Positions 16,346-35,753 of a stretch of 64,000 nt of DNA are shown piece by piece (position 1 is the stretch's first letter; every line of letters begins with the position of its first letter). The DNA comes from Gluconobacter albidus. Lineage in GTDB: Bacteria > Pseudomonadota > Alphaproteobacteria > Acetobacterales > Acetobacteraceae. Made by a program: the position numbers and the translations under genes. Below the pieces are notes generated by a model. It searched no databases and was not told the DNA's origin. It saw only the letters and a program-made list of their open reading frames with translations. The stretch covers positions 1 to 64,000 of the forward strand of contig NZ_BEWL01000004.1 of NCBI RefSeq assembly GCF_002723915.1, written 5' to 3'.

Positions 16346-16354
16346 GGACCGACC

Positions 16355-19291: not shown

Positions 19292-19346
19292 AATCGGCTC
19301 CATCGCCCTGGCGCAGCACAGGGATATCAGTCAGAAACAGTCGGAT

Positions 19347-19365
19347 CGCATAACGGAATTATGCG
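19347..19365. promoter_or_regulatory. Inverted repeat between the M20 gene and the TonB receptor
   Basis: A perfect 7-bp inverted repeat, CGCATAA-CGGAA-TTATGCG, lies 56 bp upstream of the receptor start. A T-rich run follows only on the plus strand, against the direction of both genes, so a terminator for the M20 gene is unlikely; an operator or mRNA leader hairpin is more plausible. Confidence 0.45.
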
Positions 19366-19388
19366 GGATTTTTATTCCTTGTTCGGAA

Positions 19389-20657
19389 CTACTCGAATTC
19401 GGAACGTAAGAGACGGGAGAGTGCCATTGCGACAACCTTCGTCGCACGACGCATATCTTCCAGAACCACATGCTCGTTCGCACGATGGCCATTGGCATCC
19501 TGAAGGCGACGCGGACCGGCCCCATACAGAACGGTCGGATAGCCCGCATTGCTGTAAATTCTGGCATCCGTGAACAACGGCATGCCCTTGACGGCAATCC
19601 GCTCCCCGAACACCGCTTCGGCAGCGTCCTGCAAGGCTCCGATCAAAGGGGCCTGCCCCTCATCCGGAACCAGTGGCAGCGCCAGAAGATGCTGCGTTAC
19701 GACGCAACTCACGCCCGGCACATCTACCGCATTCAGAATAAGCTGCCGCAGCTCCGCCTCGACTTCGGCCGCTTTTTCGTCCGGTAAAATCCGGCGCTCA
19801 AGCCGAAACGTCGCCTGTTCGGGCACGACGTTGGCCGCAACACCGCCGTTGATCGTTCCGATCACGAGCGTCGGCGATTCAATACCCGGGATGGAACAGA
19901 CCGTCTTCGCCAGCCTGTCCCGGTAAGCGTACAGAGCCGTCATCACACGGCACGCCGCCTCGATGGCGTCGGCGCCCGTTTCGGGCCATGCGGAATGCGC
20001 GGCCTTGCCCGTGAAAGCCACATCAAGCTGAAGACTGCCATTATGGGCAATCATCACATCATAGGTGAAACCGGCACTGATGACGTAATCGGGGGTGCTG
20101 AGCCCTTCCGAGAGCAGCCAGCCCGGCCCGACATGACCACCGATTTCCTCGTCATAGGTCAGATGAAGCTCGACCGTGCCGGACAGGTCAGAACCGGCTT
20201 CCTTCAGCGCGCGCAGGGCAAAGGCATAGGTTGCAAAGTCGGACTTCGAAACCGCGGCACCGCGTCCATAAAGTTTGCCATCTTCAATGACGCCGCCATA
20301 AGGATCATGCATCCAGCCCTCGCCAGGGGGCACGACGTCCCCATGCGCATTGAGCGCAATGACGGGGCCGCTACCATTTCCGAAACGCTCCCGGATGATC
20401 AGGTTCGTCGCACTCTGCATGCCGTGCCGTTGCACGAAGTCCTGCGGAACCGGATGGCATTCAACTTCAAAACCGAGCGCCCGCAGTCTGTCGGCGGAAA
20501 AACGGGCGTGAGGCGCGCAGTCACCGGGAGGATTGTCCGACGGGACGCCGACGAGTTCCTGAAGGAACGGCACCTGACACAGATCGAAGTCCCGGTCGAC
20601 GACATGACCCAAACATTCGCTCGCCGTTTTCTCGCAACAGGAAGTCTTTTCCAGCAC
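19389..20657 (-). CDS. M20 family metallopeptidase/deacylase (ArgE/DapE-like)
   Basis: A 422-residue cytoplasmic zinc hydrolase. Metal and catalytic motifs are NAHGDVVPPGEGW (His-x-Asp), then YDEEIGGHVG (catalytic Glu-Glu) and a late FTDARIYSNAGYPTVLYGAGP block. The family removes N-acyl groups from amino acids or cuts dipeptides. Its promoter region carries an inverted repeat containing TTGTATACGA, shared with the divergent dehydrogenase operon at 29.8 kb. It sits downstream of the ABC/dehydrogenase operon, with 111 bp between, and upstream of a TonB receptor. Freeing an N-acylated amino acid for the dehydrogenase is a reasonable but unproven role. Confidence 0.9.
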   Translation of the reverse strand: MLEKTSCCEKTASECLGHVVDRDFDLCQVPFLQELVGVPSDNPPGDCAPHARFSADRLRALGFEVECHPVPQDFVQRHGMQSATNLIIRERFGNGSGPVIALNAHGDVVPPGEGWMHDPYGGVIEDGKLYGRGAAVSKSDFATYAFALRALKEAGSDLSGTVELHLTYDEEIGGHVGPGWLLSEGLSTPDYVISAGFTYDVMIAHNGSLQLDVAFTGKAAHSAWPETGADAIEAACRVMTALYAYRDRLAKTVCSIPGIESPTLVIGTINGGVAANVVPEQATFRLERRILPDEKAAEVEAELRQLILNAVDVPGVSCVVTQHLLALPLVPDEGQAPLIGALQDAAEAVFGERIAVKGMPLFTDARIYSNAGYPTVLYGAGPRRLQDANGHRANEHVVLEDMRRATKVVAMALSRLLRSEFE

Positions 20658-20690
20658 AGCGCCTTCTCCTACCGGATCGTCTTACCGTCC

Positions 20691-20721
20691 TCAGTTCATA
20701 TTCTCTTTGTATACGAACTGA
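20691..20721. promoter_or_regulatory. Inverted repeat with TTGTATACGA, candidate GntR/FCD operator
   Basis: TCAGTTCATA and its near-complement (TATACGAACTGA) flank a short spacer, upstream of the M20 gene (start 20657). Inside it, TTGTATACGA (20707-20716) fits the TnGTnnnACnA pattern bound by FadR/GntR-type regulators. TGTATACGA recurs at 29822-29830 in front of the split dehydrogenase operon. The GntR gene at 33634 is the likely binder. Confidence 0.55.
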
Positions 20722-20768
20722 ATTCGATCCTGAAGCGGAATGTTGCCTATCGCGGAAAATATTTTCCC

Positions 20769-21503
20769 CTAACGGGAATGGGCAGCCTCAAACCGCAGAA
20801 AAGCCTGCGCTCTAGGCGAACAATGGCCTGCGAAGAAGTCCGGTACCGGGCAATCATCGACGATCTCGCCAGCATCAACGAACAGAATCCGCGTCGCGAC
20901 CTGACGCGCGAATCCCATCTCATGTGTGACGCACATCATGGTCATGCCCTCGCGCGCCAGCTCGGTCATGACCTGAAGGACTTCCTGCACCATTTCAGGA
21001 TCGAGCGCCGATGTCGGCTCGTCGAACAGCATCACATCCGGCTTCATCGCCAGAGCGCGTGCGATCGCCGCCCGCTGCTGCTGGCCGCCGGACAGGGCAA
21101 TGGGATATTTATCTGCATGCTGCTCCAGCCCGACCCGGCGCAGAAGCGTTTTCGCATGCTCGCGAAGTTCTTCCTTCCCCCGCTTCTGGACCAGACGCGG
21201 GGCCAGCATGATGTTGTCCAGAATGCTCAGATGGGAAAATAGCTCGAAGCTCTGAAAGACCATCCCCGCTTTCGCCCGCAGCGCTGAATGATCGGTTTTC
21301 GCGGAACGCACGGGCATGCCATCAACGTAGATCTGCCCGCTCTCGAACGTCTCCAGCGCATTGATACATTTGATGAGCGTGGACTTACCCGAACCCGAGG
21401 GGCCACAGACAACCACGACCTCCCCTCTGCCGATCTCCGCCGAACAGCCCTTGAGTACCTGAAAGGCGCCATATGATTTCGTCACGGTGTCCAGCGTGAT
21501 CAT
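20769..21503 (-). CDS. Polar amino acid ABC transporter ATP-binding protein (system A)
   Basis: A 244-residue ATPase of the GlnQ/HisP group: Walker A GPSGSGKSTL, Q-loop GMVFQSFELF, signature LSGGQQQRAAIARAL, Walker B VMLFDEPTSALDPEMV and the switch His in VTHEMGFARQ. It powers import through the permease at 24373-25104 with the binding protein at 25125-25973. Its ATG overlaps the stop of the fused dehydrogenase gene by 4 bp. It is the last gene of the long minus-strand operon. Confidence 0.95.
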   Translation of the reverse strand: MITLDTVTKSYGAFQVLKGCSAEIGRGEVVVVCGPSGSGKSTLIKCINALETFESGQIYVDGMPVRSAKTDHSALRAKAGMVFQSFELFSHLSILDNIMLAPRLVQKRGKEELREHAKTLLRRVGLEQHADKYPIALSGGQQQRAAIARALAMKPDVMLFDEPTSALDPEMVQEVLQVMTELAREGMTMMCVTHEMGFARQVATRILFVDAGEIVDDCPVPDFFAGHCSPRAQAFLRFEAAHSR

Positions 21504-24373
21504 GACTGATCTCCATAAAAGCGTGCGGGAGAAAAAATCTCCAGATCGGGACGTTCGGAGCGGCGCAGAACCATATCCGCGACATGCCGCCCCATGGCCG
21601 GAGCGAGCGTGACACCATTGGCCGTTACGGCCGTGAAAAAGCCCGGCACGTCCGGACTTTCTCCAAGGATCGGAGCCCCGTCGATATCAATGTTCATCGC
21701 AGCCCAGCTCCTGACGACATTCACGGCCCCCAGCGCCGGAACCAGTCTCTGCGCAACCCAGAGATTTCCTTCCAGATTTTCCCGCAGCGGTCGCGGATGC
21801 CCGTGCACCGGATCAAGCCCCGCACTCCATCCTCCGCCGATCAGCAGCGAGCCATTCGCGGCCTGTTTGAGCGTGAGATGCCGACTTGCATGGGCCAGAA
21901 GCGAAAAGACCACCGGAGCCACAGGCTCGGTCACGATCATCTGCAACGGGGCACCGAAAACCGGCAGGCGACGCCCGACCAGCCCAGCGACTTCTCCCGC
22001 ATAGGCACCGGCCGCATTCACCACCGCTCCGGCCGACCAGCGCCTTGACCCCGCACTGACATGAAACCGTGTGCCGTCGGGCTGGATTACGGACAAAGCT
22101 GTGAGTTCCTCAACCCGAACGCCCGCGTGTCGTGCCCGCGCCAGAACAGCCTGCGTTGCGGCCATGGGATTGATCTTGCCTTCCTCGGAGCAATACGCCC
22201 CGCCCAGAAAACCATCTCTCAGATTGGGCTCGATCCCGCGTAATTCGTCCGATGCCAGAATCCGCGCGTCAACGCCAAGAGCCTGTTCGACCGCGACCTT
22301 GCTGCGCAGACGGTCCATGTCGGCTTCGGTTTCCGCCACCACCAGCCCGCCGCTGACCTTGATCTCCAGATCGCGATCGAACGTTGTGCGCAGCGCCTCC
22401 CACATGCGGATGGATTCCCGCTGCAAGGCCAGCGTTCGCGCAGGCATGGACGGTCCGTCCCTATCCGCGCTGGCGTCGAACGCCATGAGCTGCGCGTGCA
22501 GACTGCCCGCATTACCGCCCGAGGCCAGCGCCCCGGCCCGACCACGTTCGAGCACCACGACACTTTTCCCGGCCTCGGCGAGAAACAGCGCCGTGAAAAG
22601 CCCAACGATCCCTCCACCTACGACCACGACATCCACGGTTTCGACAGCGCCGGAAGCCGATGGCCCCGTCGCTCCCAGCCCCGATGGAATGGGAACACGG
22701 ACATGCCCCCGCCATTCCGGCTTCTGCCGCGCGAGGGCCGCAACCGGAACCGGGCGCAGCGGGATCTGCGGGGCGGTAAAATCCTTTTCGTTTTTCGGGT
22801 CTGGAAGCATCTTCATCAGTGAAGCCTGGCAGAACCGCCCCTGACAGCGCCCCATGCCGGCGCGTGTCGTCCGTTTCAGCGTCGCCAGATCGGTGATCCC
22901 GTCTTCCGACACGCGTGCCAGGACAGTCCCTGCGGTCACGCATTCGCATCGGCACAGGATGGTCGTATCCTGAGGGGACGGCAGCGAGACAACCGGATCA
23001 TACAGCTTCCACAGAAGCTTCTGAAAACGGGCATTATCGCGATACATCCGCCGACTGCGTTCCAGACCGGACGGGACCGGTTTTCCTGCTCGGTCTAGAA
23101 GTCTGGCCGCGCACAGCATTCCCTGGGCCTGCGCCAGAAAAGCACCCCCAAAACGCCCGGCCTCACCAATAACGGACACATCCGCCTGATCGGTCTTTCC
23201 GTCGGGTTCTCGGCCCGTCTCGGGATGGGTCACGGGCCAGTTCCGGATCTCCTGTCGGCAGCCCAGAAGCCGTGGCAGTTCGCTGGCAGGAACGAACCCG
23301 TCTCCGAGGCAGACAGTCTCCGTCTCGATCCAGCGTTCTGCGCCTCCCTGCTGGTTCACCGCCACCCGCTCGACACGATCCTCGCCTTCGATGCAGGTTA
23401 CGACGCTTCCCCACAGCACTGGGACTCCGGCCCGGTGCAATGTCGTAAGATGCCGCATCCCGGCGAGCGCCAGATGAGGGGATGCCATTGAAAGCCGTCC
23501 TGCCAGAAGCGGCCGCTTTACAGGCGCGGGTGCTGAGTCCACGACGGCCGCCACATCGGCACCACGCCCGACCAGTTCCGCCGCAAGCTGAAGATTGAGC
23601 GGTCCATTCCCGGCAATGACGATCCGCCCAGGCGCCACCGCTTCATAGGCACGCAGCATTGTCTGCCCGGCCCCCGTCGTGATGACACCCGGCAGCGTCC
23701 AGCCCGGTCGGGCCGCAGGCGTTTCCTGTGCGCCAGTCGCCACGATGATGTGCTGGGTGCGGATATAGAACGCCTCACCATCCCGCAGCCCACCGATGAC
23801 GAGTGCGCCCTCTTCGCGATGGGCGCTCCATACGAGAGTGTCGTGCCACAGCCGCGCGCCACTGGCCCGCATGGCTTCAATGAGCTGTCGCCCCTTGCGA
23901 CCCTGATCATCCTGCCGCTCCGGATGCACCGCATTCTGCTTGAAATACTGGCCGCCCGGAATATGCCGTTCATCCACGACGAGAACATCCATCCCGCCAC
24001 GCGCCAGTTCGGTCGCCGCCACCAGGCCCGCCGGGCCCGCGCCCACCACCAGCACGTCGCAGGCATGTTCGGCCAGACGTTCCTCACCCTTCGCCAGACA
24101 GGCTGAAACAGCCGCATCCGGAAGACGGTCATTGCTGCGAACCCGCATCCCGTCCCGCACGGGCGTCATGCAGCCCCGGCGGGACATCTGCCCGTCCACC
24201 TCCAGCAGACACTCCTGACAGGCCCCGATCCCGCAGAACGGACCACGCTCCGATCCATCCGGCGCCGTCCGGTGCGGGATGCAGCCTGCGGCCATCAGCG
24301 CAGCCGTCAGGGTCTGTCCGGGTTTTGCGGAGACGGTGGTGTCATTGAACGTAAAGTTCAGCTGGTCCGACAT
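21500..24373 (-). CDS. Three-domain fusion: [2Fe-2S] ferredoxin-like + FAD/NAD(P) oxidoreductase with BFD + DAO-type FAD oxidase (HcnABC/opine dehydrogenase type)
   Basis: One 957-residue chain joins the parts usually made by three genes. Residues 1-95 form a Fer2_4 domain with Cys47, Cys52, Cys55 and Cys68. About 100-520 is a pyridine-nucleotide-disulfide-type oxidoreductase (VVGAGPAGLVAATELARGG) with a BFD-like [2Fe-2S] region (Cys474, Cys476 and a later GRCQGRFC). About 580-957 is a D-amino-acid-oxidase-type FAD domain (VVVVGGGIVGLF, and near the end INIDGAPILGESPDVPGFF). Relatives are HcnABC, octopine/nopaline oxidase and D-hydroxyproline/proline dehydrogenase, which oxidise a secondary amine at the membrane. 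It shares one base with the upstream permease gene and overlaps the ATPase gene. The substrate is unknown. Confidence 0.92.
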   Translation of the reverse strand: MSDQLNFTFNDTTVSAKPGQTLTAALMAAGCIPHRTAPDGSERGPFCGIGACQECLLEVDGQMSRRGCMTPVRDGMRVRSNDRLPDAAVSACLAKGEERLAEHACDVLVVGAGPAGLVAATELARGGMDVLVVDERHIPGGQYFKQNAVHPERQDDQGRKGRQLIEAMRASGARLWHDTLVWSAHREEGALVIGGLRDGEAFYIRTQHIIVATGAQETPAARPGWTLPGVITTGAGQTMLRAYEAVAPGRIVIAGNGPLNLQLAAELVGRGADVAAVVDSAPAPVKRPLLAGRLSMASPHLALAGMRHLTTLHRAGVPVLWGSVVTCIEGEDRVERVAVNQQGGAERWIETETVCLGDGFVPASELPRLLGCRQEIRNWPVTHPETGREPDGKTDQADVSVIGEAGRFGGAFLAQAQGMLCAARLLDRAGKPVPSGLERSRRMYRDNARFQKLLWKLYDPVVSLPSPQDTTILCRCECVTAGTVLARVSEDGITDLATLKRTTRAGMGRCQGRFCQASLMKMLPDPKNEKDFTAPQIPLRPVPVAALARQKPEWRGHVRVPIPSGLGATGPSASGAVETVDVVVVGGGIVGLFTALFLAEAGKSVVVLERGRAGALASGGNAGSLHAQLMAFDASADRDGPSMPARTLALQRESIRMWEALRTTFDRDLEIKVSGGLVVAETEADMDRLRSKVAVEQALGVDARILASDELRGIEPNLRDGFLGGAYCSEEGKINPMAATQAVLARARHAGVRVEELTALSVIQPDGTRFHVSAGSRRWSAGAVVNAAGAYAGEVAGLVGRRLPVFGAPLQMIVTEPVAPVVFSLLAHASRHLTLKQAANGSLLIGGGWSAGLDPVHGHPRPLRENLEGNLWVAQRLVPALGAVNVVRSWAAMNIDIDGAPILGESPDVPGFFTAVTANGVTLAPAMGRHVADMVLRRSERPDLEIFSPARFYGDQS

Positions 24374-25104
24374 CAGCGCGCATCCTGCGTCGTAGCGGGA
24401 AGTTCGATGGCCTCAACTGCTGCGGTTTTCTGCTGGCGACGATAGGGCCGTTCCGCATAATGCTCGATCCGCCGTTGCAGGAAGTCCCATGCCGTCGTCA
24501 TCAGCAGGTAATACAGGGCCGCCACGGAAAACAGTTCCAGCACCATGAACTGGTCCTGCACCAGGATCTGGCTGCGCTGCATCAGCTCCTCCATGGAGAT
24601 GACCGACGTTACGCTGGTCGTCTTGAGCAGACCGTTCACCGAATTACCCAGCGGGGGGATGATGAGCCGGAACGCCTGCGGAAAGGCGATCCGCCAGGCG
24701 ATCTGCCGCTCGCTCAGACCCAGCGCCCGCGCCGCTGCGATCTGGCCGGTTGGCACGGCATTCAGCCCCGCACGGATAATTTCCGCGAGATACGCTGCCT
24801 CGTTCAGTGTCAGCCCGATGATCGAACACGCCAGAACACTCAGCCGGATATCCAGCTTCGGCAGACCGGTATAGATCACGACCAGCTGGACCAGCAGAGG
24901 CGTACCCCGGAAAAACCAGACATAGAATCGCGCCGGCCAGGACAGCACACGGTGCTGCGAGCGTTTCATGACCGCAGTCAGCAGCCCCAGAAGGAACCCC
25001 ATCATCATTGAGACGACCGTCATGATGACCGTGATGAGCGCCCCGCGGAAAATATAGGGGCTGCCGAGATAGGTGAAGAAGCCGTGCCAGCTCCAGATCT
25101 GCAT
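24373..25104 (-). CDS. Polar amino acid ABC transporter permease (system A)
   Basis: A 243-residue HisM/GlnP-type inner-membrane protein with about five hydrophobic segments and the EAA loop LNEAAYLAEIIRAGLNAVPTGQIAAARALGLS that docks on the ATPase. Only one permease is encoded for this system, so it probably acts as a homodimer. It starts 20 bp after the binding protein gene and shares a base with the fused dehydrogenase gene, so the transporter and the enzyme are made together. Confidence 0.95.
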   Translation of the reverse strand: MQIWSWHGFFTYLGSPYIFRGALITVIMTVVSMMMGFLLGLLTAVMKRSQHRVLSWPARFYVWFFRGTPLLVQLVVIYTGLPKLDIRLSVLACSIIGLTLNEAAYLAEIIRAGLNAVPTGQIAAARALGLSERQIAWRIAFPQAFRLIIPPLGNSVNGLLKTTSVTSVISMEELMQRSQILVQDQFMVLELFSVAALYYLLMTTAWDFLQRRIEHYAERPYRRQQKTAAVEAIELPATTQDAR

Positions 25105-25124
25105 GTCGATGCCCCGTGTTCGTA

Positions 25125-25973
25125 TCAGTGCATGTCGGATGGATGGGACGGCCCCGAGACCGTGATCCGTCCGGGAAAGGGGGAAACGCCATAGGGCGCC
25201 ATGAGGCGTTCCAGCGTTCCGTCCTCACGCATGTTTTCCAGAACATCCGCCAGACGCTGTGCGAGTGCCGGGTCCCGCAGCGCCAGTGCGACGGGCGTGG
25301 GATACAACCCCTTCAGAATGGGCTTTACGCCACCCTGAAGTGCGTTGCGCCGTGCAACCGCATCAATGGAAAACACCGCCGTTACCTGTCGCGCACGCAG
25401 GGCGGCGAACGCTATGCCCACGTTCTGGAACGTCTTGATATCAAAGCCCGGCCGTCCGGCGTCCCGCAAGGCCTGATCGGCCTCTCGGGCGTGGTGTTCT
25501 TCAATTCCACCCATTTCGACCCCGATCGAAGACCCGGACAAATCCTCAAGCCCGGCGGGGTGCAGAACGGACTCATCGTTGAGAGACACGCTGATCGCCT
25601 GAATCTCGTAGGGGATCATTTCCATCAGCCGGGCGCGCTGGGCGGTATAGAACATGCCCGTATTGATGACGTCCCACCGTTTTTCAAGCAGCCCGAGCGT
25701 GAGCTGCGCGAAGGACGTCGAGAGCGTGACCGGCTTCAGACAGAGCCTGCGGGCGATCTCGTTTCCAAGCTCTATCCGCATCCCTGCAATCTGCCCATCC
25801 ACCGTCACATATTGCAGGGGCGGCAGCGTCGGATTGGTCGCCATGACCAGATGCTGCGGGGAAATCAGTCCCTCAACAGCCTCCGGACACGGCGCGGCCT
25901 GCGCTCCGAAAGCGAGCACCGCACAGAGCAGCCCCGCCGCCCGGCTCAGACCTGACACAGGGCCGCCCGCCAT
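25125..25973 (-). CDS. ABC transporter amino acid-binding protein (system A), SBP_bac_3
   Basis: A 282-residue periplasmic binding protein. The start at 25973 (MAGGPVSGLSRAAGLL) gives a clean signal peptide ending FGAQAAP and begins 1 bp after the stop of the DHDPS-like gene; the open frame extends 36 codons further but would run through that gene. SBP_bac_3 features include LVMATNPTLPPLQYV, GQIAGMRIELGNEIARRL and RWDVINTGMFYTAQRA. It should capture a polar or cationic amino acid or an opine-like compound for the permease downstream. Confidence 0.92.
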   Translation of the reverse strand: MAGGPVSGLSRAAGLLCAVLAFGAQAAPCPEAVEGLISPQHLVMATNPTLPPLQYVTVDGQIAGMRIELGNEIARRLCLKPVTLSTSFAQLTLGLLEKRWDVINTGMFYTAQRARLMEMIPYEIQAISVSLNDESVLHPAGLEDLSGSSIGVEMGGIEEHHAREADQALRDAGRPGFDIKTFQNVGIAFAALRARQVTAVFSIDAVARRNALQGGVKPILKGLYPTPVALALRDPALAQRLADVLENMREDGTLERLMAPYGVSPFPGRITVSGPSHPSDMH

Positions 25974-25974
25974 A

Positions 25975-26865
25975 TCAGGCGCTTTCTTCGAACCGCAGCT
26001 CCAGATCGCGGACGATCTGAAGGGCGCGGGCATCATCCGCTTCCGGCAGCGGCAGACGCGGCGCGCGCGGACCACCGACATCGAAGCCCATATGCTTCAG
26101 CAGGGCTTTCGTTCCCGAGACATAACCCTGCCCACCCACGAACTGGATCAGCGGCACATTGCGGAAATACATCTCGCGTGCCTTGCCGATGTCCTTGTAA
26201 CCGTCACAGAGATTGAAAATCTCGCTCATGACATGCGGCGCTACGTTGGATGCCACTGCGACCCAGCCGATTGCGCCTTCGAGGAAGCTCTCGAAGCCCA
26301 TGATGCCGCCAAAGACCGAAAGCCGGTCACCACACAGCCGGATGATGTCCCGCACGCGGGTTACATCCATCGTGGATTCCTTGATGAGGCAGCAGTTGTC
26401 GATACAGGACAGACGCGCCACGAGTTCAGGCTTCAGATCCACATTCGCCGTGGCCGGGTTGTTGTAGAGCATGATCGGCAGGCCGATCGCATCCGACACC
26501 CGACGGTAATGGACGAACAGCTCGTCATCCGTCGGCGTGGAATAGAACGGGGGGATGATCATCACGCCATCAGCCCCGAGCTTCTCGGCTTCCTGACTGT
26601 AGCGGATCACGTCATAGGTGTTTTCCGCACCTGTACCGATGAAGACCGGAACGCGGCCTGCGGCCTGCTCGATGACGGTCTGCGCAACCAGCGTGCGTTC
26701 GTCATCCGTCAGCGACAGGAATTCGCCGGTCGAGCCCAGCGGGATCAGACCTGCGATGCCCTGCGCGATCTGCCAGTCGGTAAAGCGCCGCAGTCCGGGG
26801 ACGTCAATGCGCCCTTCGCTGTCATAAGGCGTGATCATGACGGTATATGTGCCACGAAACTTCAT
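25975..26865 (-). CDS. DHDPS/NAL family lyase or deaminase (first copy)
   Basis: A 296-residue TIM-barrel class I aldolase-family enzyme. The ATG at 26865 is chosen because it has GAGGAAAG upstream and starts at MKFRGTYTVMITP; the only start further out is a TTG at 26883. The GTTGE-type motif is GSTGEF, the Schiff-base lysine is Lys162 (CLIKEST) and the active-site tyrosine is Tyr134 (MLYNNP). Beside HcnABC-type dehydrogenases, members act as pyrroline-4-hydroxy-2-carboxylate deaminases in hydroxyproline breakdown; lysine biosynthesis DapA is less likely here. It lies between the two ABC systems in the same operon. Confidence 0.92.
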   Translation of the reverse strand: MKFRGTYTVMITPYDSEGRIDVPGLRRFTDWQIAQGIAGLIPLGSTGEFLSLTDDERTLVAQTVIEQAAGRVPVFIGTGAENTYDVIRYSQEAEKLGADGVMIIPPFYSTPTDDELFVHYRRVSDAIGLPIMLYNNPATANVDLKPELVARLSCIDNCCLIKESTMDVTRVRDIIRLCGDRLSVFGGIMGFESFLEGAIGWVAVASNVAPHVMSEIFNLCDGYKDIGKAREMYFRNVPLIQFVGGQGYVSGTKALLKHMGFDVGGPRAPRLPLPEADDARALQIVRDLELRFEESA

Positions 26866-26879
26866 GGGTCTTTCTTTCC

Positions 26880-27653
26880 TCAATGGTCCGGGTCCGACCG
26901 CGATCCGGCCGGGTCCGTGGCGGCATCACCGCCATGGGTATTCATGAACGCGGCAATATCGGGCTGTTGCGCCGCATATCCGCGCCCCGTTCCGACGGCC
27001 CTGACCTGACCGTCTTCCAGAAGAACAATCCTGTCCGACAGCGATGAGACGACACCCATCGCGTGGGAAACCTGAATGATCGTCATGCCGTCCTGCGCCA
27101 GATCCCGCAGCAGCACGCCGACATCACGTACCTTGTGCGGATCGAGCGCCGATGTCGGCTCATCCAGCAAAAGCAGCGCCGGGCGGAGCATGAGCGCGCG
27201 TGCAATCGCCACACGCTGTTTCTGGCCGCCCGACAGATCGGCTGGCAGCACGTCCGCCTTGTCCGCCAGCCCCAGACGCTCCAATAGCGCGCGCGCTTCG
27301 TGCTCGGCCTCCCGACGCGAACGCTTCGCCACGACCGTTGGTGCCAGCGTCAGGTTCCGCAGAACCGACATATGACCGAACAGTCCGTATTGCTGGAACA
27401 CGATCGCAGCCTGCTCCCGCAGGATGCGGGCAGAGGCCGGGGCGGCCATGTCCACGTTCCGCCCGTGAACGTCCATCTGGCCCTGCCAGACCGGCTGAAG
27501 CCCGATCAGCGTCCGCAAAAACGTGGTTTTCCCGGAACCGGACGGCCCGATGAAACTCACGATGTCCCCGCGTTCGGCCTCAAATCCAGCGTGACGCAGG
27601 GTTTCGTTTTTCCCGTGGCGGACGCAGACGTCCCGGACATCAATGTACGGCAA
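26880..27653 (-). CDS. Polar amino acid ABC transporter ATP-binding protein (system B)
   Basis: A 257-residue ATPase with Walker A GPSGSGKTTF, Q-loop IVFQQYGLFGH, signature LSGGQKQRVAIARAL, Walker B LLLLDEPTSALDP and the switch His in VSHAMGVV. It has a Gly/Asp-rich C-terminal tail not usual in the family. It overlaps the upstream permease gene by 14 bp and is followed within 14 bp by the DHDPS-like gene. Confidence 0.94.
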   Translation of the reverse strand: MPYIDVRDVCVRHGKNETLRHAGFEAERGDIVSFIGPSGSGKTTFLRTLIGLQPVWQGQMDVHGRNVDMAAPASARILREQAAIVFQQYGLFGHMSVLRNLTLAPTVVAKRSRREAEHEARALLERLGLADKADVLPADLSGGQKQRVAIARALMLRPALLLLDEPTSALDPHKVRDVGVLLRDLAQDGMTIIQVSHAMGVVSSLSDRIVLLEDGQVRAVGTGRGYAAQQPDIAAFMNTHGGDAATDPAGSRSDPDH

Positions 27654-28293
27654 TGCGTTTCTCCAGCAGGCGGCTCAGACAGGTCAGGGGATAGGAAATC
27701 GCGAAATAGAGCAGGAGGACCACACAGAAGACCTGCGCCGAGGGCAGCCCGCGATTGGTCAGGATCACCCCGGCCTGGCTCAGCTCCACAACCCCGATCT
27801 GGGAGGCCAGTGCCGTATCCTTGATGAACAGCACCAGATAGCCCACCGCGGGCGGCACAACGGCGGACATCGCCTGCGGCCCGATCACATACCGCCATCG
27901 CGCCCAGAGTGGCAGGTTCAGGACCAGCGCGGCCTCGGCCTGCTCCACCGGAACCGTTTTGACCCCGCCATGCAGGATTTCGCAGAGATAGGCCGCCGCA
28001 ATCAGCCCGATGGAGCCGATCGCAACAGCAGTCGCCGACACATCCACGCCCATCATACCCGTGCAGAAAAAGACGATGTACAGCGTCACGATGAACGGAA
28101 TGCGTCGGATGGTCTGAACATACATCACCGCCAGAACCCGCAGCGGCATCATGCCCCGCATCTCGGACAGGCGAAGCGCCGTGAGGATGACCGCCCCCAC
28201 AATCCCGAGAACGCCACCACCCAGCGACAGCACGATCGTCCGAGCCATCGCCTGAAGCAGAAGGGTGATGTCATAATGCGAAAATGCGATCAT
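27640..28293 (-). CDS. Polar amino acid ABC transporter permease 2 (system B)
   Basis: A 217-residue membrane protein with an EAA-like loop AAYLCEILHGGVKTVPVEQAEAALVLNLP. It pairs with the permease encoded immediately upstream (4-bp overlap) to form a heterodimeric channel, unlike system A. The EAA glutamate position is Cys-Glu shifted compared with its partner but the Gly is kept. Confidence 0.94.
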   Translation of the reverse strand: MIAFSHYDITLLLQAMARTIVLSLGGGVLGIVGAVILTALRLSEMRGMMPLRVLAVMYVQTIRRIPFIVTLYIVFFCTGMMGVDVSATAVAIGSIGLIAAAYLCEILHGGVKTVPVEQAEAALVLNLPLWARWRYVIGPQAMSAVVPPAVGYLVLFIKDTALASQIGVVELSQAGVILTNRGLPSAQVFCVVLLLYFAISYPLTCLSRLLEKRIAVH

Positions 28294-28949
28294 ACCATCC
28301 GCTCCATCGTGCGGCGGAACAGTGCAAAGACGCCCGTCAGCGCGAAAGAGAGCAGGGCATACAATCCGCCCGTCACGAGCATGACTTCAAGGATGCGGAA
28401 CGTTGTCGATCCGATATCATAAGCGCGGCCCGTCAGGTCCTCGACGCCGAAAATGGACGCCATGGCGCTACCCAGGATCATGATCTGAAAATGGTTAGCC
28501 AACGCCGGGAACATCGCACGCCCTGCATAGGGCAGGATGACCCGCAGATAGGTCTGACGCCGGTTCAGCCCCAGCGTCAGCGCAACTTCATGATAGACAG
28601 GCGGCACCCGCGCCATGCCCGCCCCGAGAATATCCGCCAGATAGGCCGCCGCATTGAGCGTCATGCCGATCACGACTGACAAAAACGGCGAGACCATCAG
28701 CCCAATCAGCGGCAGACAGTAGAACACAGCGAAAATCTGGGACAGTTGAGGCGTATTCGTCAGGGCCGTGCTGTAACTGCGGCTGAGCCTGCGCCACGCC
28801 CCCTGATTTTCAAATCGCAGAATGGCCAGTGCGACTGCCAGCGACAGCCCGAACGCAAAGGCCAGCGTCGCAATCAGAATAGTTACGCCTACACCGCCCA
28901 GCAGAAACGGGAGATGCGCGAAAACAGGATTGAAATCCAACCCCGTCAT
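28290..28949 (-). CDS. Polar amino acid ABC transporter permease 1 (system B)
   Basis: A 219-residue inner-membrane permease. Hydrophobic segments are spread over the whole length and the EAA-type loop is LNAAAYLADILGAGMARVPPVYHEVALTLGLNRRQ. It overlaps by 4 bp both the binding-protein gene upstream and the second permease gene downstream. Confidence 0.94.
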   Translation of the reverse strand: MTGLDFNPVFAHLPFLLGGVGVTILIATLAFAFGLSLAVALAILRFENQGAWRRLSRSYSTALTNTPQLSQIFAVFYCLPLIGLMVSPFLSVVIGMTLNAAAYLADILGAGMARVPPVYHEVALTLGLNRRQTYLRVILPYAGRAMFPALANHFQIMILGSAMASIFGVEDLTGRAYDIGSTTFRILEVMLVTGGLYALLSFALTGVFALFRRTMERMV

Positions 28950-29746
28950 GGCGCGTGCCCGGCACCGGCGGGATCGAACCAGCGGCGATGGATCTGCTCC
29001 AGACGTCCGTCGTGCTCCATCCCGTCAAGGATACCGTTTACATCCGCGCGCAGGGCCACGTCCTGCTGCGACATCCCGATGCAGTCATCCCCCACAGGCG
29101 CTGCAAATCCCCGGATGATCCGCCAGTGTACCTGAGGCTGCGACGGCAGGTAATGGCCGACATATTCGATGACATCTACCATCGCATCACCACGCCCCTG
29201 CGCCAGCGCTCGAATGGCATCGGCATAGCTCTCAAGCAGCAGCATCGACGCCTTGGGAGCATGCTGTTGCAGATACGCAACCGCCGTCGAGCCGCGCACC
29301 TCGATCAGGCGGTGCGCGCCGGATTCGAGATCTGCAAAGGACGCGATGCCCCGGTCCGCAGGTGCAATAACCGCAAACTGTTCGGAATAAAGCGGCCGTG
29401 AAAACGCAATAACATCCGCACGTGCAGGCGTCCGTGTCAGACCGCCCAGAACGACGTCGACCTTCCCGGCCATCAGATAGGGAATGCGACCGCTGGAAGC
29501 GAGCGTCACAAAACGCGGCTCAACACCCAGACCCTGCGCAATCGCCCGGCCGATATCGACATCATATCCGACGAGTACGTTGTGATCGTCATATTTCCCA
29601 AGTGGGGGCAGTCCGGGTTCCACACCAATATTGATGTGCCCGCTGGCCCGGATGGCGGCACTGTCTCTCGCCTGCACGCCCCCGCCCCACAGGACGACGG
29701 ATGCAGCCCAGACCCCCAGCAGCAGACTGTTCCGGATCGCTCTCAA
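28946..29746 (-). CDS. ABC transporter amino acid-binding protein (system B), SBP_bac_3
   Basis: A 266-residue periplasmic binding protein and first gene of the long minus-strand operon. Signal peptide MRAIRNSLLLGVWAASVVLW, cleaved near VQARDS. Family blocks: GHINIGVEPGLPPLGKYDD, VGYDVDIGRAIAQGLGV and AGKVDVVLGGLTRTPARADVIAFSRPLY. It is divergent from the split dehydrogenase operon; the 127-bp gap between them carries the TGTATACGA box. Confidence 0.94.
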   Translation of the reverse strand: MRAIRNSLLLGVWAASVVLWGGGVQARDSAAIRASGHINIGVEPGLPPLGKYDDHNVLVGYDVDIGRAIAQGLGVEPRFVTLASSGRIPYLMAGKVDVVLGGLTRTPARADVIAFSRPLYSEQFAVIAPADRGIASFADLESGAHRLIEVRGSTAVAYLQQHAPKASMLLLESYADAIRALAQGRGDAMVDVIEYVGHYLPSQPQVHWRIIRGFAAPVGDDCIGMSQQDVALRADVNGILDGMEHDGRLEQIHRRWFDPAGAGHAP

Positions 29747-29810
29747 GAAAGGTTTCCCTGCATGTTGTGCGACTTTGGGGTTGCGGTTACCCGATCACTG
29801 ATCTAATTCA

Positions 29811-29830
29811 GATATACGTTCTGTATACGA
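29811..29830. promoter_or_regulatory. Candidate GntR operator in the divergent promoter region
   Basis: ATATACG (29812-29818) and CTGTATACGA (29821-29830) lie side by side between the divergent binding-protein and [2Fe-2S] protein genes. TGTATACGA is identical to nine bases upstream of the M20 gene (20708-20716). A regulator bound here could control both directions of the island. Confidence 0.55.
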
Positions 29831-29873
29831 TAGAAAACCCTTTAAAAGAAATTTCTTCTCCGGACCGATCCTG

Positions 29874-30137
29874 ATGGGAAACAAGATGCCTCCTGTAACC
29901 TTCACCTTCCTGAACAGCACCATCGAAGGGGTCGAGGGAGAACCGGTTGCAGCAGCCCTCAGACGCGCCGGAATTACGGAACTCGGCCGGTCCGGCGTCG
30001 ACGGAACACCCCGTAGCGCCTTCTGTTTCATGGGAAGCTGTCAGGAATGCCGGGTCCGCATCGACGGCACCGTCGCCTATGCCTGCAAGGCTCCCGTCCT
30101 CCCGAACATGACCGTCACGCCCTATGTCCAGTCCTGA
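29874..30137 (+). CDS. [2Fe-2S] ferredoxin-like subunit (HcnA/opine oxidase gamma type)
   Basis: An 87-residue Fer2_4 protein with all four cluster cysteines (Cys51, Cys56, Cys59, Cys71 in FCFMGSCQEC and AYACKAP). It is equivalent to residues 1-95 of the 957-residue fusion. It overlaps the next gene by 14 bp. An ATG four codons in (MPPVTF) is an alternative start. It would relay electrons between the two flavin subunits of a membrane-associated dehydrogenase. Confidence 0.93.
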   Translation: MGNKMPPVTFTFLNSTIEGVEGEPVAAALRRAGITELGRSGVDGTPRSAFCFMGSCQECRVRIDGTVAYACKAPVLPNMTVTPYVQS

Positions 30138-31545
30138 TTTCTCTCCCGTTACCGTCATCGGTGGCGGCATTGCCGGTGCGACGTCTGCCATCGCCCTGTC
30201 CCGGCATGGATTCCCGGTCACCCTGATCGACGAACAGCCTGTCGCAGGCGGCCAGATCTTCCGCGCCCCCTCACCCTATGCGCGCAAAATCGTTCCGCCC
30301 AATCACGAATTTTCCGGCGGCGACACCCTGCGGCAGAAACTGGCCGCATCAAACGTGGATGTCCGGTTTTCCACCCGCGTCTGGGGCCTATCGCCCACAC
30401 TAATGCTCGATCTGCTCGGACCGGACGGCATCAACCAACTGCCCGCCGCAACTCTCGTCGTCGCCAATGGCGCCACTGAGCGTTTCCTGCCTTTCCAAGG
30501 CTGGACGACGCCGCGCATCATCGGTCTTGCGGGCGCCAGCATCCTGATGCGCAACGGCGGCACCCTGCCCGGCCAGAGCGTCGTGGTCGCGGGCTCGGGG
30601 CCGCTCCTGTTTTCCGTCGCCCATCAGGTTCTTGAACTGGGCGGCAGGGTCGTTGCGATCGTGGATGCCGGTCATCGTTCGGACTGGCTGCGTCTTGGCG
30701 CCATGCTGTCGCTCGACCCGGCACGCCTGACACAGGCCACAAGCTGGATGCTGCGTCTCAAAAAAGCTGGCATCCCGATCCATCATCGCGCCCACATTTC
30801 GGAAGCGCAGGAAACAGGAACCGGCCTGCGCCTGACCGTTACAGAAATGGATCATCCCGAACGACGCCACGTTTATGCGACTGAGGCCGCAGCCTGTGGA
30901 TATGGCCTCAAGCCTTCCACTCTCATCACCCGCACGGCGGGCGTTCAACACCGTCACGATCCGGTTGGCGGTTATCTTGAGCCCGTAACGGACACCGCAG
31001 GCCGTACCAGCCGTCCCGATCTTTATGTCACGGGGGACGCGGCCGGAATCCGTGGCATGGCCGTGGCCCGTCTGCGGGGCCTGATCACGGCCCATGCCAT
31101 TGCCCATGACCGGGGCGTGATTTCCAGAGACACTTACGAGGCGCTGACGCGCGTGCCCCTGCGTCAGCGCCGTCGTCTTGAAGCCGTTTCGCGCCAGATG
31201 CTGCCTCTGATGAACGCCGGCAGCGCCATTCCCGCCCATCTTCAGGACGAAACCATCGTCTGCCGCTGCGAACGCGTAAAGGCCGCGACCCTGCGTTCCG
31301 CCATTCAGGCCGGAGCCGAAGACCTGAATCAACTCAAGGCCTGGACACGCTGTGGCATGGGCCCGTGTCAGGGCCGCATGTGTGAGGACAGCGCACGCGG
31401 CCTGCTCGCGGCGGCCTGCGGCAAAACTCCCGAAGAGGCAGGCAGCTTCACAGCGCGAATGCCTTTCTTTCCACTCCCGCTCACAGCCGTGACCGGAGAT
31501 TTCACCTATTCCGATATTCCTCTTCCGAAGGCAGCTCCCCTATGA
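30124..31545 (+). CDS. FAD/NAD(P)-dependent oxidoreductase subunit with BFD domain (HcnB/OoxA type)
   Basis: A 473-residue flavoprotein: FAD-binding GGGIAGATSAIALSRHG at the N-terminus, a second dinucleotide site (VVVAGSGPLLFSVAHQVLELGG), YVTGDAAGIRGM near the end of the fold and a C-terminal BFD-like [2Fe-2S] region (VCRCERV and CGMGPCQGRMC). Corresponds to about residues 100-520 of the fused protein. It overlaps the ferredoxin-like gene by 14 bp and the DAO gene by 4 bp, which fits a heterotrimer made in equal amounts. Confidence 0.94.
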   Translation: MSSPDFSPVTVIGGGIAGATSAIALSRHGFPVTLIDEQPVAGGQIFRAPSPYARKIVPPNHEFSGGDTLRQKLAASNVDVRFSTRVWGLSPTLMLDLLGPDGINQLPAATLVVANGATERFLPFQGWTTPRIIGLAGASILMRNGGTLPGQSVVVAGSGPLLFSVAHQVLELGGRVVAIVDAGHRSDWLRLGAMLSLDPARLTQATSWMLRLKKAGIPIHHRAHISEAQETGTGLRLTVTEMDHPERRHVYATEAAACGYGLKPSTLITRTAGVQHRHDPVGGYLEPVTDTAGRTSRPDLYVTGDAAGIRGMAVARLRGLITAHAIAHDRGVISRDTYEALTRVPLRQRRRLEAVSRQMLPLMNAGSAIPAHLQDETIVCRCERVKAATLRSAIQAGAEDLNQLKAWTRCGMGPCQGRMCEDSARGLLAAACGKTPEEAGSFTARMPFFPLPLTAVTGDFTYSDIPLPKAAPL

Positions 31546-32696
31546 CCCAGGCGCTGCACACCAGACCGGATGTCTTTGATACGGTCGTCGTGGGGGCGGG
31601 CGTTATGGGCGCTACAACTGCGCTTTTCCTTGCCCGCGCTGGCCAGAAGGTCGCCCTGATCGACCGGGAGGACATGTTCCGGGCGGCATCCGGCGTCAAT
31701 GCTGGCACCCTGACCCTGCACATGACCCGTGCTCAGCTCATTCCGCATGCCATCCGCGGCCGCGAGATGTGGCTCGACAGTGCCAACTGGCTCGGGGAAG
31801 ACGTCGGTGCCCTCGCCACACCCGGCCTGTCCATGGCGTTTACCGAAGCCGAAGAAGAGCTGCTGCGTCAGCGCGCGCGCGTCCGACAGGAAATGGGTGC
31901 GCCGATTGAAGTCCTGTCAGCCAAAGAGACCATCAGGATCGAACCCGGCATAAACCCGACCCTCCGGGCCGCCGCCTACTGCGCGCTGGACGGCCATATC
32001 CCGACCTATCGCGTCGGTGGGGCCTATGCCCGCGCCCTCAGGCAGGCCGGGGTCACGATCATCGAGAACAGTCCGGTCGAGGGCATCAGCCCCGCTACTG
32101 GCGGAGGCTATGAGGTCCGGATTACTGGCCGCGCGCACCCCGTACGGGGCCACAGGATCGTGCTCAGCACCGGGGCCTGGCTCGAAAAAATGCTGGGCTG
32201 GCTCGGATATGACATTCCGATCCGCTGCCTCATCAACCAGCTTGTCGTCACGGAAACGCTGCCGCCCGTCATGAGGAGCGTGCTGAGCATTGCCAACGGC
32301 CTGCTGTCCCTCAAGCAGTTTGCCAATGGCAGCGTGCTGATCGGTGGCGGCTGGCAGGGCGAGGGCAACATCCATCAGGGCGGTACCCGCGTCATTCCTG
32401 AAAACCTGCGCGGCAATGTCCGTCTGGCTCAGCACGTCGTCCCGCGCCTCAACGAAGCGCAGATCCTGCGTGTCTGGCTCGGTCTCGAATCCGAAACGCC
32501 GGACGCCATGCCCCTGATCGGCGCCCTGACGCCGGATGAAGATGCCTTTGTCGTCGGATGCATCCATTCCGGATTTACGAGCGGGCCATATATGGGGCGC
32601 CTGCTTGCCGAGCGCATTCTGGGGAGCGACCCGGATCTGGGCGCGTTCGACCCCACCCGCTTTTCCTCCCTTCCCGCCACTGGAACACGCCCATGA
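31542..32696 (+). CDS. DAO-type FAD oxidoreductase subunit (HcnC/OoxB, D-hydroxyproline dehydrogenase-like)
   Basis: A 384-residue FAD enzyme: TVVVGAGVMGATTALFLARAG at the N-terminus, middle block GGAYARALRQAGVTI, and a C-terminal LESETPDAMPLIGALTP that is the usual FAD-proximal site of glycine oxidase/HcnC relatives. It should be the substrate-oxidising subunit, acting on a secondary amine such as an imino acid or opine. ATGA overlaps join it to both neighbours, so the three dehydrogenase genes and the DHDPS-like gene are coupled. Confidence 0.94.
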   Translation: MTQALHTRPDVFDTVVVGAGVMGATTALFLARAGQKVALIDREDMFRAASGVNAGTLTLHMTRAQLIPHAIRGREMWLDSANWLGEDVGALATPGLSMAFTEAEEELLRQRARVRQEMGAPIEVLSAKETIRIEPGINPTLRAAAYCALDGHIPTYRVGGAYARALRQAGVTIIENSPVEGISPATGGGYEVRITGRAHPVRGHRIVLSTGAWLEKMLGWLGYDIPIRCLINQLVVTETLPPVMRSVLSIANGLLSLKQFANGSVLIGGGWQGEGNIHQGGTRVIPENLRGNVRLAQHVVPRLNEAQILRVWLGLESETPDAMPLIGALTPDEDAFVVGCIHSGFTSGPYMGRLLAERILGSDPDLGAFDPTRFSSLPATGTRP

Positions 32697-33634
32697 TCCC
32701 CGCTTCCCCCACGCCATTCCGGGGCGTATATGCCGCAACGCTGGTGCCCTTTCTGGAAGACGGGACGCTGGACGAGGCGCGCTTTACACAGCACCTGTGG
32801 GACTGCACCCGTGCCGAAGGCATCGTGGGCATCCTGTGCAACGGTCATGCGGGCGAGAACCATCTCCTGACCCGCGAAGAAAAGCGCCGAGTCGTGGAAC
32901 TGGCCGCCGACACCATCGGCAAGGACCGCATCATCGTCTCGGGCATCCTGTCCGAAGACCTCGATGAAGCTTGTCTTCATGCCTGTGATGCCATCGCGGC
33001 CGGAGCGGACGCACTGCTCGTTTTCCCGCCGTTTTCATGGGCGGTGTCGCAGGATCATGACGCCATCATCGCTCATCATACCGCGATCTGCGAGGCCGTC
33101 GATGCCCCGATCATGCTGTATCAATCCTCCGTCGGTAGCGGCGGCATGGCCTATTCTCTCCCCATTCTTGAAAGCCTGCTCAGGCTCCCCGGCATCGTCG
33201 CCATCAAGGAAGGAAGCTGGGAAACCAACGCCTATGACAAACACCGCAGGCTGGCCGCGCGCGTAGCCCCGCATGTGGACGTCATGGCATCGGGAGACGA
33301 ACATCTCCTGCCTTGCTTCGCCATTGGAACGACCGGCAGCCTCGTCAGCCTAGCGGCCATCCTGCCCGTTTCGCTCGCCAAACTGTGGCGCGCGATGGAG
33401 AACGATGACCTGCCCGCCGCGCGCAGTATCCATGATGCCATCCAACCGCTGGCGAACCTGATTTACGGTCGTGCGCCCTCGGGTCGGGCCACGCTGCGTC
33501 TGAAGGCCTGTCTGGTCATGCAGGGCAAATGGCCCTCCTGCCGCACCCGCAAGGCTTCTGATATCATCGCCCCCGAAGAATGGCAGGAGCTGTCAGCAGC
33601 CTTGCACGATGCAATGGCACTGGAAGGACCGTAA
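32693..33634 (+). CDS. DHDPS/NAL family lyase or deaminase (second copy)
   Basis: A 313-residue TIM-barrel enzyme starting at the ATG that overlaps the DAO gene stop; a longer frame from 32558 runs inside that gene and is rejected. Schiff-base Lys172 (VAIKEGS) and Tyr143 (IMLYQSS) are present. The substrate-carboxylate motif is NGHAGEN rather than GTTGE, and the sequence is far from the copy at 25975, so the two are not recent duplicates and probably act on different products. It likely processes the imine or keto acid formed by the dehydrogenase. Confidence 0.92.
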   Translation: MIPASPTPFRGVYAATLVPFLEDGTLDEARFTQHLWDCTRAEGIVGILCNGHAGENHLLTREEKRRVVELAADTIGKDRIIVSGILSEDLDEACLHACDAIAAGADALLVFPPFSWAVSQDHDAIIAHHTAICEAVDAPIMLYQSSVGSGGMAYSLPILESLLRLPGIVAIKEGSWETNAYDKHRRLAARVAPHVDVMASGDEHLLPCFAIGTTGSLVSLAAILPVSLAKLWRAMENDDLPAARSIHDAIQPLANLIYGRAPSGRATLRLKACLVMQGKWPSCRTRKASDIIAPEEWQELSAALHDAMALEGP

Positions 33635-34287
33635 TGGGCGATTATATGGTGGCCGAACGCGAGCTGAATCTCGCGGAACTGGCCTATACACAGATCCGGC
33701 GCATGATCCTTGAAAAAGAACTTCCCGGCGGAATGTCCGTCGTGGAGGGGCGCCTGGCGGATCATCTCGAGATCTCGCGCACTCCCGTTCGCGAGGCCCT
33801 GATGCGACTCGCCGCCGAGGATCTTCTGGTCAAGCAGGGCTCGCGCTCGTTTGCGGTGCGGAACGTCTCGGCTACCGAATTCTTTCAGGGCATCCATATC
33901 CGCGAGATCCTTGAAAGCGAAGCCATCAACCTGTCATTCGACAGGCTTGATCGCAAAGTTCTGGAAAACCTCCGCCGTGAAGTCATCGAACTTGGCGAGA
34001 CGCCCGAGCAGACGGCTGCACAATGGCAGCTTGATGACCGGATCCATCTGATGTTTCCCAAAGTCTCGGGCAACACGGTCCTGCTCCGTTCCATCAACGA
34101 ACTGCGGACCCTGACCCGCCTGTGCGAAGTCAGCTACCCGCTCGGGCGCGTTCCCGCATCCACGCGCGAACATCTGGCCATTCTGGAGGCGCTGCTCGAC
34201 GGCGACAGCACCGGCGCGCGCGAAGCCATGGTCATGCATCTGCGCAATGTCGCGACAGACTGCATGGACATTCTCAGGGGCGGCTGA
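33634..34287 (+). CDS. GntR family regulator, FCD (FadR) subfamily
   Basis: A 217-residue regulator. Winged helix at residues 10-75 (YTQIRRMILEKELPGG, then ISRTPVREALMRLAAEDLLV), followed by an all-helical FCD effector domain with RLDRKVLENLRRE and a late REHLAILEALLDGDSTGAREAMVMHL. FCD proteins bind small carboxylates, often with a metal. Its ATG overlaps the DHDPS stop (TAATG). It is the obvious regulator of the island; the TGTATACGA boxes at 20.7 and 29.8 kb fit the operator style of this family. Confidence 0.94.
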   Translation: MGDYMVAERELNLAELAYTQIRRMILEKELPGGMSVVEGRLADHLEISRTPVREALMRLAAEDLLVKQGSRSFAVRNVSATEFFQGIHIREILESEAINLSFDRLDRKVLENLRREVIELGETPEQTAAQWQLDDRIHLMFPKVSGNTVLLRSINELRTLTRLCEVSYPLGRVPASTREHLAILEALLDGDSTGAREAMVMHLRNVATDCMDILRGG

Positions 34288-34317
34288 CCACCCCTGCCCA
34301 TTTCAGGAGAAACCGTC

Positions 34318-35706: not shown

Positions 35707-35753
35707 GGCTTTCGCCCCAGCCTCATGAGTGAAGGCCGACTTACCGGTCGGCC
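35704..35753. terminator. Paired hairpins between hydantoinase and amidase genes (convergent terminator)
   Basis: TGAGGCT (35704-35710) pairs with AGCCTCA (35719-35725), and GGCCGAC (35734-35740) with GTCGGCC (35747-35753). They cover the ends of both convergent genes. T-runs are weak, so termination efficiency is uncertain. Confidence 0.6.

Follow-up and report, generated by a model that had tools for sequence, protein, structure and literature searches.

A widespread single-chain flavin/iron-sulphur dehydrogenase beside a three-gene relative in a Gluconobacter island

The first 64,000 nucleotides of contig NZ_BEWL01000004.1 of Gluconobacter albidus (assembly GCF_002723915.1, a genome of 3.29 Mb in 49 contigs that is 99.9% complete), which we call the window, contain two versions of one kind of flavin/iron-sulphur amine dehydrogenase: a single chain of 957 residues, named FUS here, and a set of three separate genes. 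Why should one cell carry both the fused and the split form, and on what do they act? We find that FUS is a true, widespread single-chain form of a known kind of enzyme. The best clue to its function is the company of hydantoinase, M20 or PTE-family hydrolases, which the initial annotation of this DNA overlooked.

The fused enzyme and its separate neighbour

FUS is encoded on the minus strand (21500..24373) in a frame with no internal stop. Its order of a [2Fe-2S] domain, an FAD oxidoreductase with BFD, and a DAO domain, as first described, agrees with the coordinates and with Pfam (Fer2_4 at residues 3-82, Pyr_redox_2 at 106-404, Fer2_BFD at 472-523 and DAO at 581-934). The chain is laid out as a gamma part (about residues 1-100; 24074..24373), an alpha part (101-560; 22694..24073) and a beta part (571-957; 21503..22663), all on the minus strand. 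The gamma part has the [2Fe-2S] motif C47-x4-C-x2-C-x12-C68; the alpha part, an FAD/BFD oxidoreductase, has GxGxxG at 111 and CxC-x32-C-x4-C from residue 474; and the beta part, of the DAO fold, has GxGxxG at 586 and a putative FMN motif, RSW, at 888. The three genes of the split set share this domain order, as had also been claimed, and lie on the plus strand: FerS (29874..30137; gamma subunit, 87 residues, Fer2_4), OxS (30124..31545; alpha subunit, 473 residues, Pyr_redox_2 and Fer2_BFD) and DaoS (31542..32696; beta subunit, 384 residues, DAO). In these proteins the gamma motif, C-x4-C-x2-C-x11~12-C in its general form, begins at C51, the alpha motifs GxGxxG and C-x-C...C-x4-C are at 13 and 380, and the beta motif R-x-W reads RVW at 310; DaoS has the GxGxxG of beta as well.

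In an alignment of 38 fusions, made up of the window and 37 of the 47 loci from named genomes described below, the gamma motif and both alpha motifs are present in 38/38 rows, R-x-W falls within the last 120 residues in every row, and E553 and W554 at the joint between alpha and beta are invariant. An AlphaFold2 model of FUS as a single chain is confident (pLDDT 89.1, pTM 0.90), and the top Foldseek folds for it are sarcosine oxidase alpha (1vrq_A), L-proline dehydrogenase (1y56_A and 1y56_B) and glycine oxidase.

The initial annotation had proposed a search for further single-chain fusions, and a scan of named genomes yielded 47 fusion loci, with identities of 37-95% where aligned. Full-length single chains account for 44 of them, and the remaining three (L071, L077, L083) are interrupted at contig ends. 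The nearest relative of FUS among these genomes is the fusion of Gluconobacter cadivus (95% identity). At a Xanthobacteraceae locus (L054) the gamma part fell below the BLAST cut, although its motif is present. The hosts include members of Acetobacteraceae, Rhodobacterales and Rhizobiales as well as Thalassospira, Granulosicoccus and Vibrio, and further fusions were found in plasmid records from Aureimonas, Agrobacterium vitis, Azospirillum and Variovorax. Within Gluconobacter the fusion occurs in 8/26 genomes including that of the window, at identities of at least 78%. In all eight, the contig that bears the fusion also encodes, no more than about 10 kb away, alpha and beta parts similar to those of the split set. 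Across an even sample of the whole class it is rare: a single continuous match spanning over 930 residues (E value 1e-60 or better) was found in 3/386 other genomes, and one of these three matches carries an internal TGA. The same sample has gamma and alpha in one stop-free frame at two places (G104, and contig 11 of G380). On this sequence evidence, we judge FUS to be a genuine and old fusion.

Part by part, FUS and the split set are 37% (gamma), 27-28% (alpha) and 33% (beta) identical, so the two are old relatives and a recent duplication is out. Trees were built from 59 alpha domains (minimum length 380 residues) and 68 beta domains (minimum 340). They kept 30 fusions and excluded near-identical Gluconobacter copies (L038-L041, L043, L009), L016 (same gene as L100), further FUS rows, L071 and L110, which are both partial, and L046, L051 and L104 as near-copies. 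In both trees the split set of the window sits in a clade of 15, apart from the fusions (100/100 in each). The 30 sampled fusions form one clade in the beta tree (97/99). In the alpha tree they share one side of a branch (100/98) with three gamma-alpha fusions whose beta protein is separate (L098, L114, L116), and the alpha part of a fourth such fusion, L117, which has a separate DAO protein, lies outside the FUS group. Since the clades are separate and well supported, FUS is not derived from the adjoining split set. The suggestion of a natural gene fusion of the complex thus holds in that the fusion is real and widespread, but not in the sense of a joined form of the neighbouring genes. The trees fit a stepwise fusion in which gamma and alpha would have joined first and beta later, and fission may also have occurred within the fusion group.

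A separate alpha-beta fusion of 826 residues was seen at L099 (1847-4327, minus strand), within an opine-dehydrogenase-like B-C-A-B2 arrangement. It apparently arose independently, from alpha and a second beta gene, and its beta part clusters among other second beta genes.

Partner genes, lyases and importers

The genes that accompany the fusion were counted across the 36 fusion loci whose two flanks each span at least 5 kb, taking one locus per species and keeping two from Gluconobacter. The DHDPS-family lyase of the fused set, DHF, is present in 36/36, followed by a GntR regulator (31), the permease (31), the ATPase (30), the solute-binding protein (SBP) of the fused set (29) and DUF3830 (22). 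Among hydrolases, an M20 protein of the PRK06837 type occurs in 19, a PTE-family protein in 17, an M20 protein of the window's type in nine and the hydantoinase, HydA, in eight, so that 33/36 loci have a HydA, PTE or M20 hydrolase of some kind. A TonB receptor like that of the window is found in five and a class-V aminotransferase in three. HydA and PTE never occur together in these 36 loci. Both are present at L055, which was excluded for its short right flank, and the PTE loci come mostly from one taxonomic group, so we do not claim that the two are strictly exclusive.

Each set also occurs without the other. In 28/36 fusion loci no split set lies within the fetched stretch; conversely, plasmids from Paraburkholderia, Acidisoma and Pantoea carry the split set without a fusion, in every case accompanied by a DHDPS-family gene, genes for a hydantoinase and a GntR protein, and an importer that has two permeases. 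Among seven split loci with no fusion in the stretch, five have a lyase of the split-set type, five have an SBP like that of the window's split set, and three have HydA; the fetched stretch of the Sulfitobacter locus (L097) has none of the three. At a Marinibacterium locus (L070) both sets lie within 5589-22038 in a different gene arrangement, which supports a functional tie between them.

In the window, HydA (34318..35706, plus strand) is the only hydantoinase found by BLAST and stands at the end of the split gene run. It belongs to the dihydropyrimidinase/D-hydantoinase family (TIGR02033, 496.8 bits against a cut-off of 393.25) and scores 578.2 against the subfamily NF009941, below its cut-off of 647. 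In a tree of 16 hydantoinases it groups with those of two further loci from the same family, where the fusion is present and the split set is not (100/99). The M20 protein (19389..20657, minus strand) is an ArgE/DapE-type deacylase (TIGR01910, 236.2 against 217.6). Among the subset of other loci that was scanned, only three show genes that fit a ring-amide or ureide setting: a Vibrio locus (L078) encodes an allantoinase of the PuuE type (454.9 against 424.6) together with a permease of the NCS1 family that scores under the allantoin-permease cut-offs, a metagenome-assembled Rhodospirillales genome (L076) has a ureidoglycolate lyase (162.5 against a subfamily cut-off of 160), and at L056 a carbamate kinase adjoins the fusion (338.5 against 266).

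Two further kinds of neighbour were observed. A PTE-family (PF02126) gene adjoins the fusion at L061 (8080-9102) and at 20 more cluster 11 loci, mostly with no visible hydantoinase; PTE and hydantoinase loci both often have DUF3830, and one amidohydrolase possibly replaces the other. A class-V aminotransferase adjoins fused or split sets at L045 (17668-18903), L048 (13678-14916), L076 (5064-6299) and L115 (3308-4489). These proteins resemble BhcA and pyridoxamine-pyruvate transaminase below the cut-offs, the one at L115 is annotated as alanine-glyoxylate type, and glyoxylate may be a product.

The two DHDPS-family lyases of the window are DHF (25975..26883, minus strand) and DHS (32693..33634, plus strand), the latter with a start placed near 32693 from the end of DaoS, in an open reading frame listed from 32558. 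Each enzyme set does have one such lyase, as initially noted, but DHF is not directly beside FUS, being separated from it by a permease and an SBP in the same minus-strand run. The reported difference in motif, GSTGEF in DHF and GHAGEN in DHS, was read again as stated and extends to their relatives: GHAGE is found in 20/20 DHS-type proteins and GSTGEF in 46/56 DHF-type proteins, a set that was assigned by BLAST and includes a few distant members. When aligned to the genome's own DapA, with positions that we take to follow E. coli DapA numbering, the Schiff-base lysine is kept in 56/56 DHF-type and 20/20 DHS-type proteins and Tyr133 in 56/56 and 19/20, respectively. Arg138 is replaced in both window lyases and retained in 3/56 DHF-type and 1/20 DHS-type proteins. 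In all 20 DHS-type proteins His-Ala replaces Thr-Thr and Trp or Phe replaces Tyr107, with Trp in the window. Neither window lyase thus has the full DapA set of Lys, Tyr133, Thr-Thr and Arg138, and both look like class-I aldolase-fold lyases other than DapA that differ from each other at proton-relay positions.

The initial annotation placed an ABC importer beside the fused set. An importer is present there, but the count is two, one for each enzyme set as judged from the loci of relatives. That of FUS consists of the SBP (SBP2, 25125..26081, with its true start probably near 25973), the permease (24373..25104) and the ATPase (20769..21503). That of the split set consists of another SBP (SBP1, 28946..29746), two permeases (28290..28949 and 27640..28293), placed here because they resemble genes at other loci and because the importers of L095 and L096 also have two permeases, and an ATPase (26880..27653); all seven genes are on the minus strand. 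In the alignment, the arginine that presumably contacts the carboxylate of the ligand is kept in 23/23 SBP1-type and 42/42 SBP2-type proteins, and the aspartate that we take to contact a free alpha-amino group is absent at the aligned column in 22/23 and 42/42. The distinct lyases and importers fit the earlier suggestion that the two sets serve related but different substrates; they would also fit different isomers.

The island that holds these genes is larger than the span of 21500-33634 first proposed, which proved too short on both sides. We compared the flanks with six Gluconobacter genomes that have no fused gene. In two of these, G003 and G018, the left match ends at 16691 and 16686 and resumes at 35740, with 40 and 45 bp between. 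Because these two genomes lack the block between matching flanks, we conclude that 16692..35739, about 19 kb from a TonB receptor through the hydantoinase, was gained or lost as one unit. The match to G017 and G020 resumes at 35740 and 35737, with gaps that reach further left (to 15135 and 12479), and G007 and G014 have no contiguous left-side match. The revised limits add the hydantoinase, the M20 deacylase and the TonB-dependent receptor (16712..19303, minus strand), and the block also includes a GntR/FCD regulator (33646..34287, plus strand; the listed open reading frame begins at 33580, and this start is our placement). A glutathionylspermidine-synthase-like gene (15131-16345) and a CN hydrolase (35741-36586) lie outside. 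None of the 20 repeat families listed, out of 30, gives a direct repeat that links one end of the island to the other. Rfam gave no match in the window at the gathering threshold, hence no riboswitch clue to the ligand. An ARAGORN call of tRNA-Ser (28959-29036, minus strand) is probably false, since it falls within the SBP1 gene and Rfam does not support it.

Further left in the window, 4809-10047 encodes a PBP4-type D-Ala-D-Ala carboxypeptidase, a NamZ exo-beta-N-acetylmuramidase, an MFS transporter and a BadF-type kinase, the last two with sub-cut-off likeness to NagP and NagK. With a nearby TonB receptor (10244-12478), this group looks like one for the salvage of N-acetylmuramic acid (MurNAc) or muropeptides. 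A DUF1501 and DUF1800 pair adjoins the glutathionylspermidine-synthase-like gene (12499-15237) and is also missing from G020, where the left match ends at 12479.

A proposed two-track pathway and its rivals

What was observed comprises the genes, domains and motifs, the conserved partners, the presence or absence of the block, the distinct descent of the fused and the split set, and a confident single-chain model. From these we propose that the island serves a two-track catabolism of N-capped or cyclic, carboxylate-bearing compounds that resemble amino acids, a reading to which we give an even chance. The TonB receptor and the two importers, of polar-amino-acid type, would take up the compounds, and HydA and the M20 deacylase would remove a ring or an acyl or carbamoyl cap. 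The resulting amino (or imino) acid would then be oxidised by the FAD in the beta (DAO) part, from which electrons would travel via FMN and [2Fe-2S] toward the quinone pool. Finally, the product would be cleaved or deaminated by a class-I lyase of the DHDPS family. FUS and the GSTGE lyase would form one track, the three-subunit dehydrogenase and the GHAGE lyase the other, and presumably each would act on its own isomer or homologue within a single class of substrate. The order of steps, the electron acceptor, the class of substrate and the division of isomers between the tracks are thus parts that the proposal adds. Somewhat less probable, and put forward tentatively, is a wider version in which this is an undescribed pathway scattered across Proteobacteria, with uncapping by HydA or alternatively PTE, a single-chain quinone-linked dehydrogenase and a DHDPS-family lyase; acetic acid bacteria would have two independently evolved back halves, fused and split, interleaved in one island that is gained or lost as a block, and could use both isomers.

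Several points weigh against this proposal. HydA was found in just 8/36 fusion and 3/7 split loci, so ring opening is perhaps not common to all, although in Acetobacteraceae its site lies mostly beyond the fetched stretch. The window's HydA is on a long branch (1.09), and hydantoinases are a broad family. In the importers, an aspartate stands one column off in 41/42 SBP2-type and 19/23 SBP1-type proteins, and the apparent loss may be an alignment shift; moreover, the 23 SBP1-type proteins include NocT, which binds nopaline and likewise lacks the aspartate, so that the ligand may be an opine. The residue pattern is therefore suggestive only. The best alpha tree has no single fusion clade, although one is not rejected (p-AU 0.183). 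The loci were gathered by exact peptide patterns, with Rhodobacterales over-represented, and the substrate assignments for the island are predictions from its genes. Finally, neither the gene set nor the single-chain form was found described in the literature searched, which is weak evidence of absence as subscription journals were mostly uncovered; in the available parts of the literature on cyanide-using Pseudomonas, hydantoinase and DHDPS appear only in unrelated passages.

The best-surviving rival is opine catabolism, in which flavin opine dehydrogenases of the OdhABC or NoxBCA type would dismantle N-carboxyalkyl amino acids similar to octopine. The enzyme superfamily is shared, the SBPs resemble NocT in lacking the alpha-amino aspartate, and relatives are found on rhizobial and Agrobacterium plasmids. 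We nevertheless consider it unlikely: in both trees the parts of the pTiC58 nopaline oxidase (NoxA and NoxB) fall in clades other than those of the split set and FUS, no gene of the island encodes an arginase, an ornithine cyclodeaminase or an NAD opine dehydrogenase, and it is not evident what a hydantoinase would do in cleaving opines.

A second rival, catabolism of hydroxyproline or D-proline, would make both enzymes D-hydroxyproline dehydrogenases and both DHDPS proteins pyrroline-4-hydroxy-2-carboxylate deaminases. The combination of DAO, Fer2_4, BFD, DHDPS and GntR is that of this pathway's gene set in Streptomyces coelicolor, according to the available text of PMC6608401, and the pathway generally includes the DAO and DHDPS superfamilies (PMC4113996). 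However, the lead, which goes back to the initial annotation, did not survive a search for the proline racemase family: PF05544 has no match in the 99.9%-complete genome, while 22/96 genomes of the class sample exceed the cut-off, and BLAST with five PF05544 references found none in the 36 fusion loci. No aldehyde dehydrogenase is among the island genes, and the hydantoinase, M20 and PTE partners would be unexplained. The dehydrogenases may use cis-4-hydroxy-D-proline directly, but hydroxyproline is unlikely as the substrate, and the full reading finds little credence with us.

That FUS arose when the adjoining three-gene complex was duplicated and its genes then joined, and that it still acts on the same substrate, might be expected from the matching domain order and partner types within one island; yet the low identity of each part, the trees, which contradict such a descent, and the occurrence of each set elsewhere without the other make this very improbable. 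That the 957-residue frame results from an assembly error or a frameshift, or that its product is processed to give subunits like the three of characterised relatives (available text of PMC4575208), can practically be dismissed given the same frame in eight Gluconobacter genomes and 44 named loci and the conserved alpha-beta joint, although sequence cannot reveal post-translational processing.

Relation to known systems

On the proposed two-track reading, the shared set of hydrolase, dehydrogenase and lyase points to a class of nutrients that soil, plant-associated and marine bacteria would use and whose breakdown was not found described in the literature searched. As a one-chain form of a twelve-chain enzyme, FUS would ease work on structure, electron transfer and dye- or electrode-linked sensing. 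According to the available text of PMC4575208, OpnDH, D-hydroxyproline dehydrogenase (D-HypDH) and hydrogen cyanide (HCN) synthase form an alpha4beta4gamma4 family, and subunit exchange was demonstrated for Bradyrhizobium complexes of this family. With this exchange known, a cell that has both a fused and a split set offers a natural test for why subunits become fused; by analogy, a covalent chain would prevent exchange. Avoidance of exchange is unlikely as the first cause of the fusion, since most fusion loci have no split set nearby.

Heterotetrameric sarcosine oxidase resembles FUS in its alpha and beta folds but is clearly distinguished by NCBIfam scores (soxA 95.5 against a cut-off of 1164, soxB 98.5 against 529.45). 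The archaeal L-proline dehydrogenase PH1363/PH1364 (1y56) is among the closest solved folds for FUS alpha and beta, and its alpha subunit has a gamma-like N-terminus (PMC4575208, available text); however, it is archaeal, acts on L-proline and has two chains, whereas FUS fuses beta too. The gamma-alpha fusions L098, L114, L116 and L117 are an intermediate architecture that differs in its separate beta protein and other partners; L098 (7968-10776) and L114 (6001-8779) combine the fusion and a separate DAO protein with GcvPA/GcvPB and a sugar-type ABC importer. The family of OdhABC, D-HypDH and HCN synthase shares with both window sets, by its published motifs, the gamma [2Fe-2S] site, the GxGxxG and four-cysteine motifs of alpha and the DAO fold with GxGxxG and R-x-W of beta, as well as a polar amino acid ABC importer nearby, although the four-cysteine spacing is 32 or 33 in the fusions against the x15~20 printed in the available text of PMC4575208. 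It differs in that FUS is one chain, while the split set of the window keeps three genes, and in that the window sets have hydantoinase, M20 and DHDPS partners.

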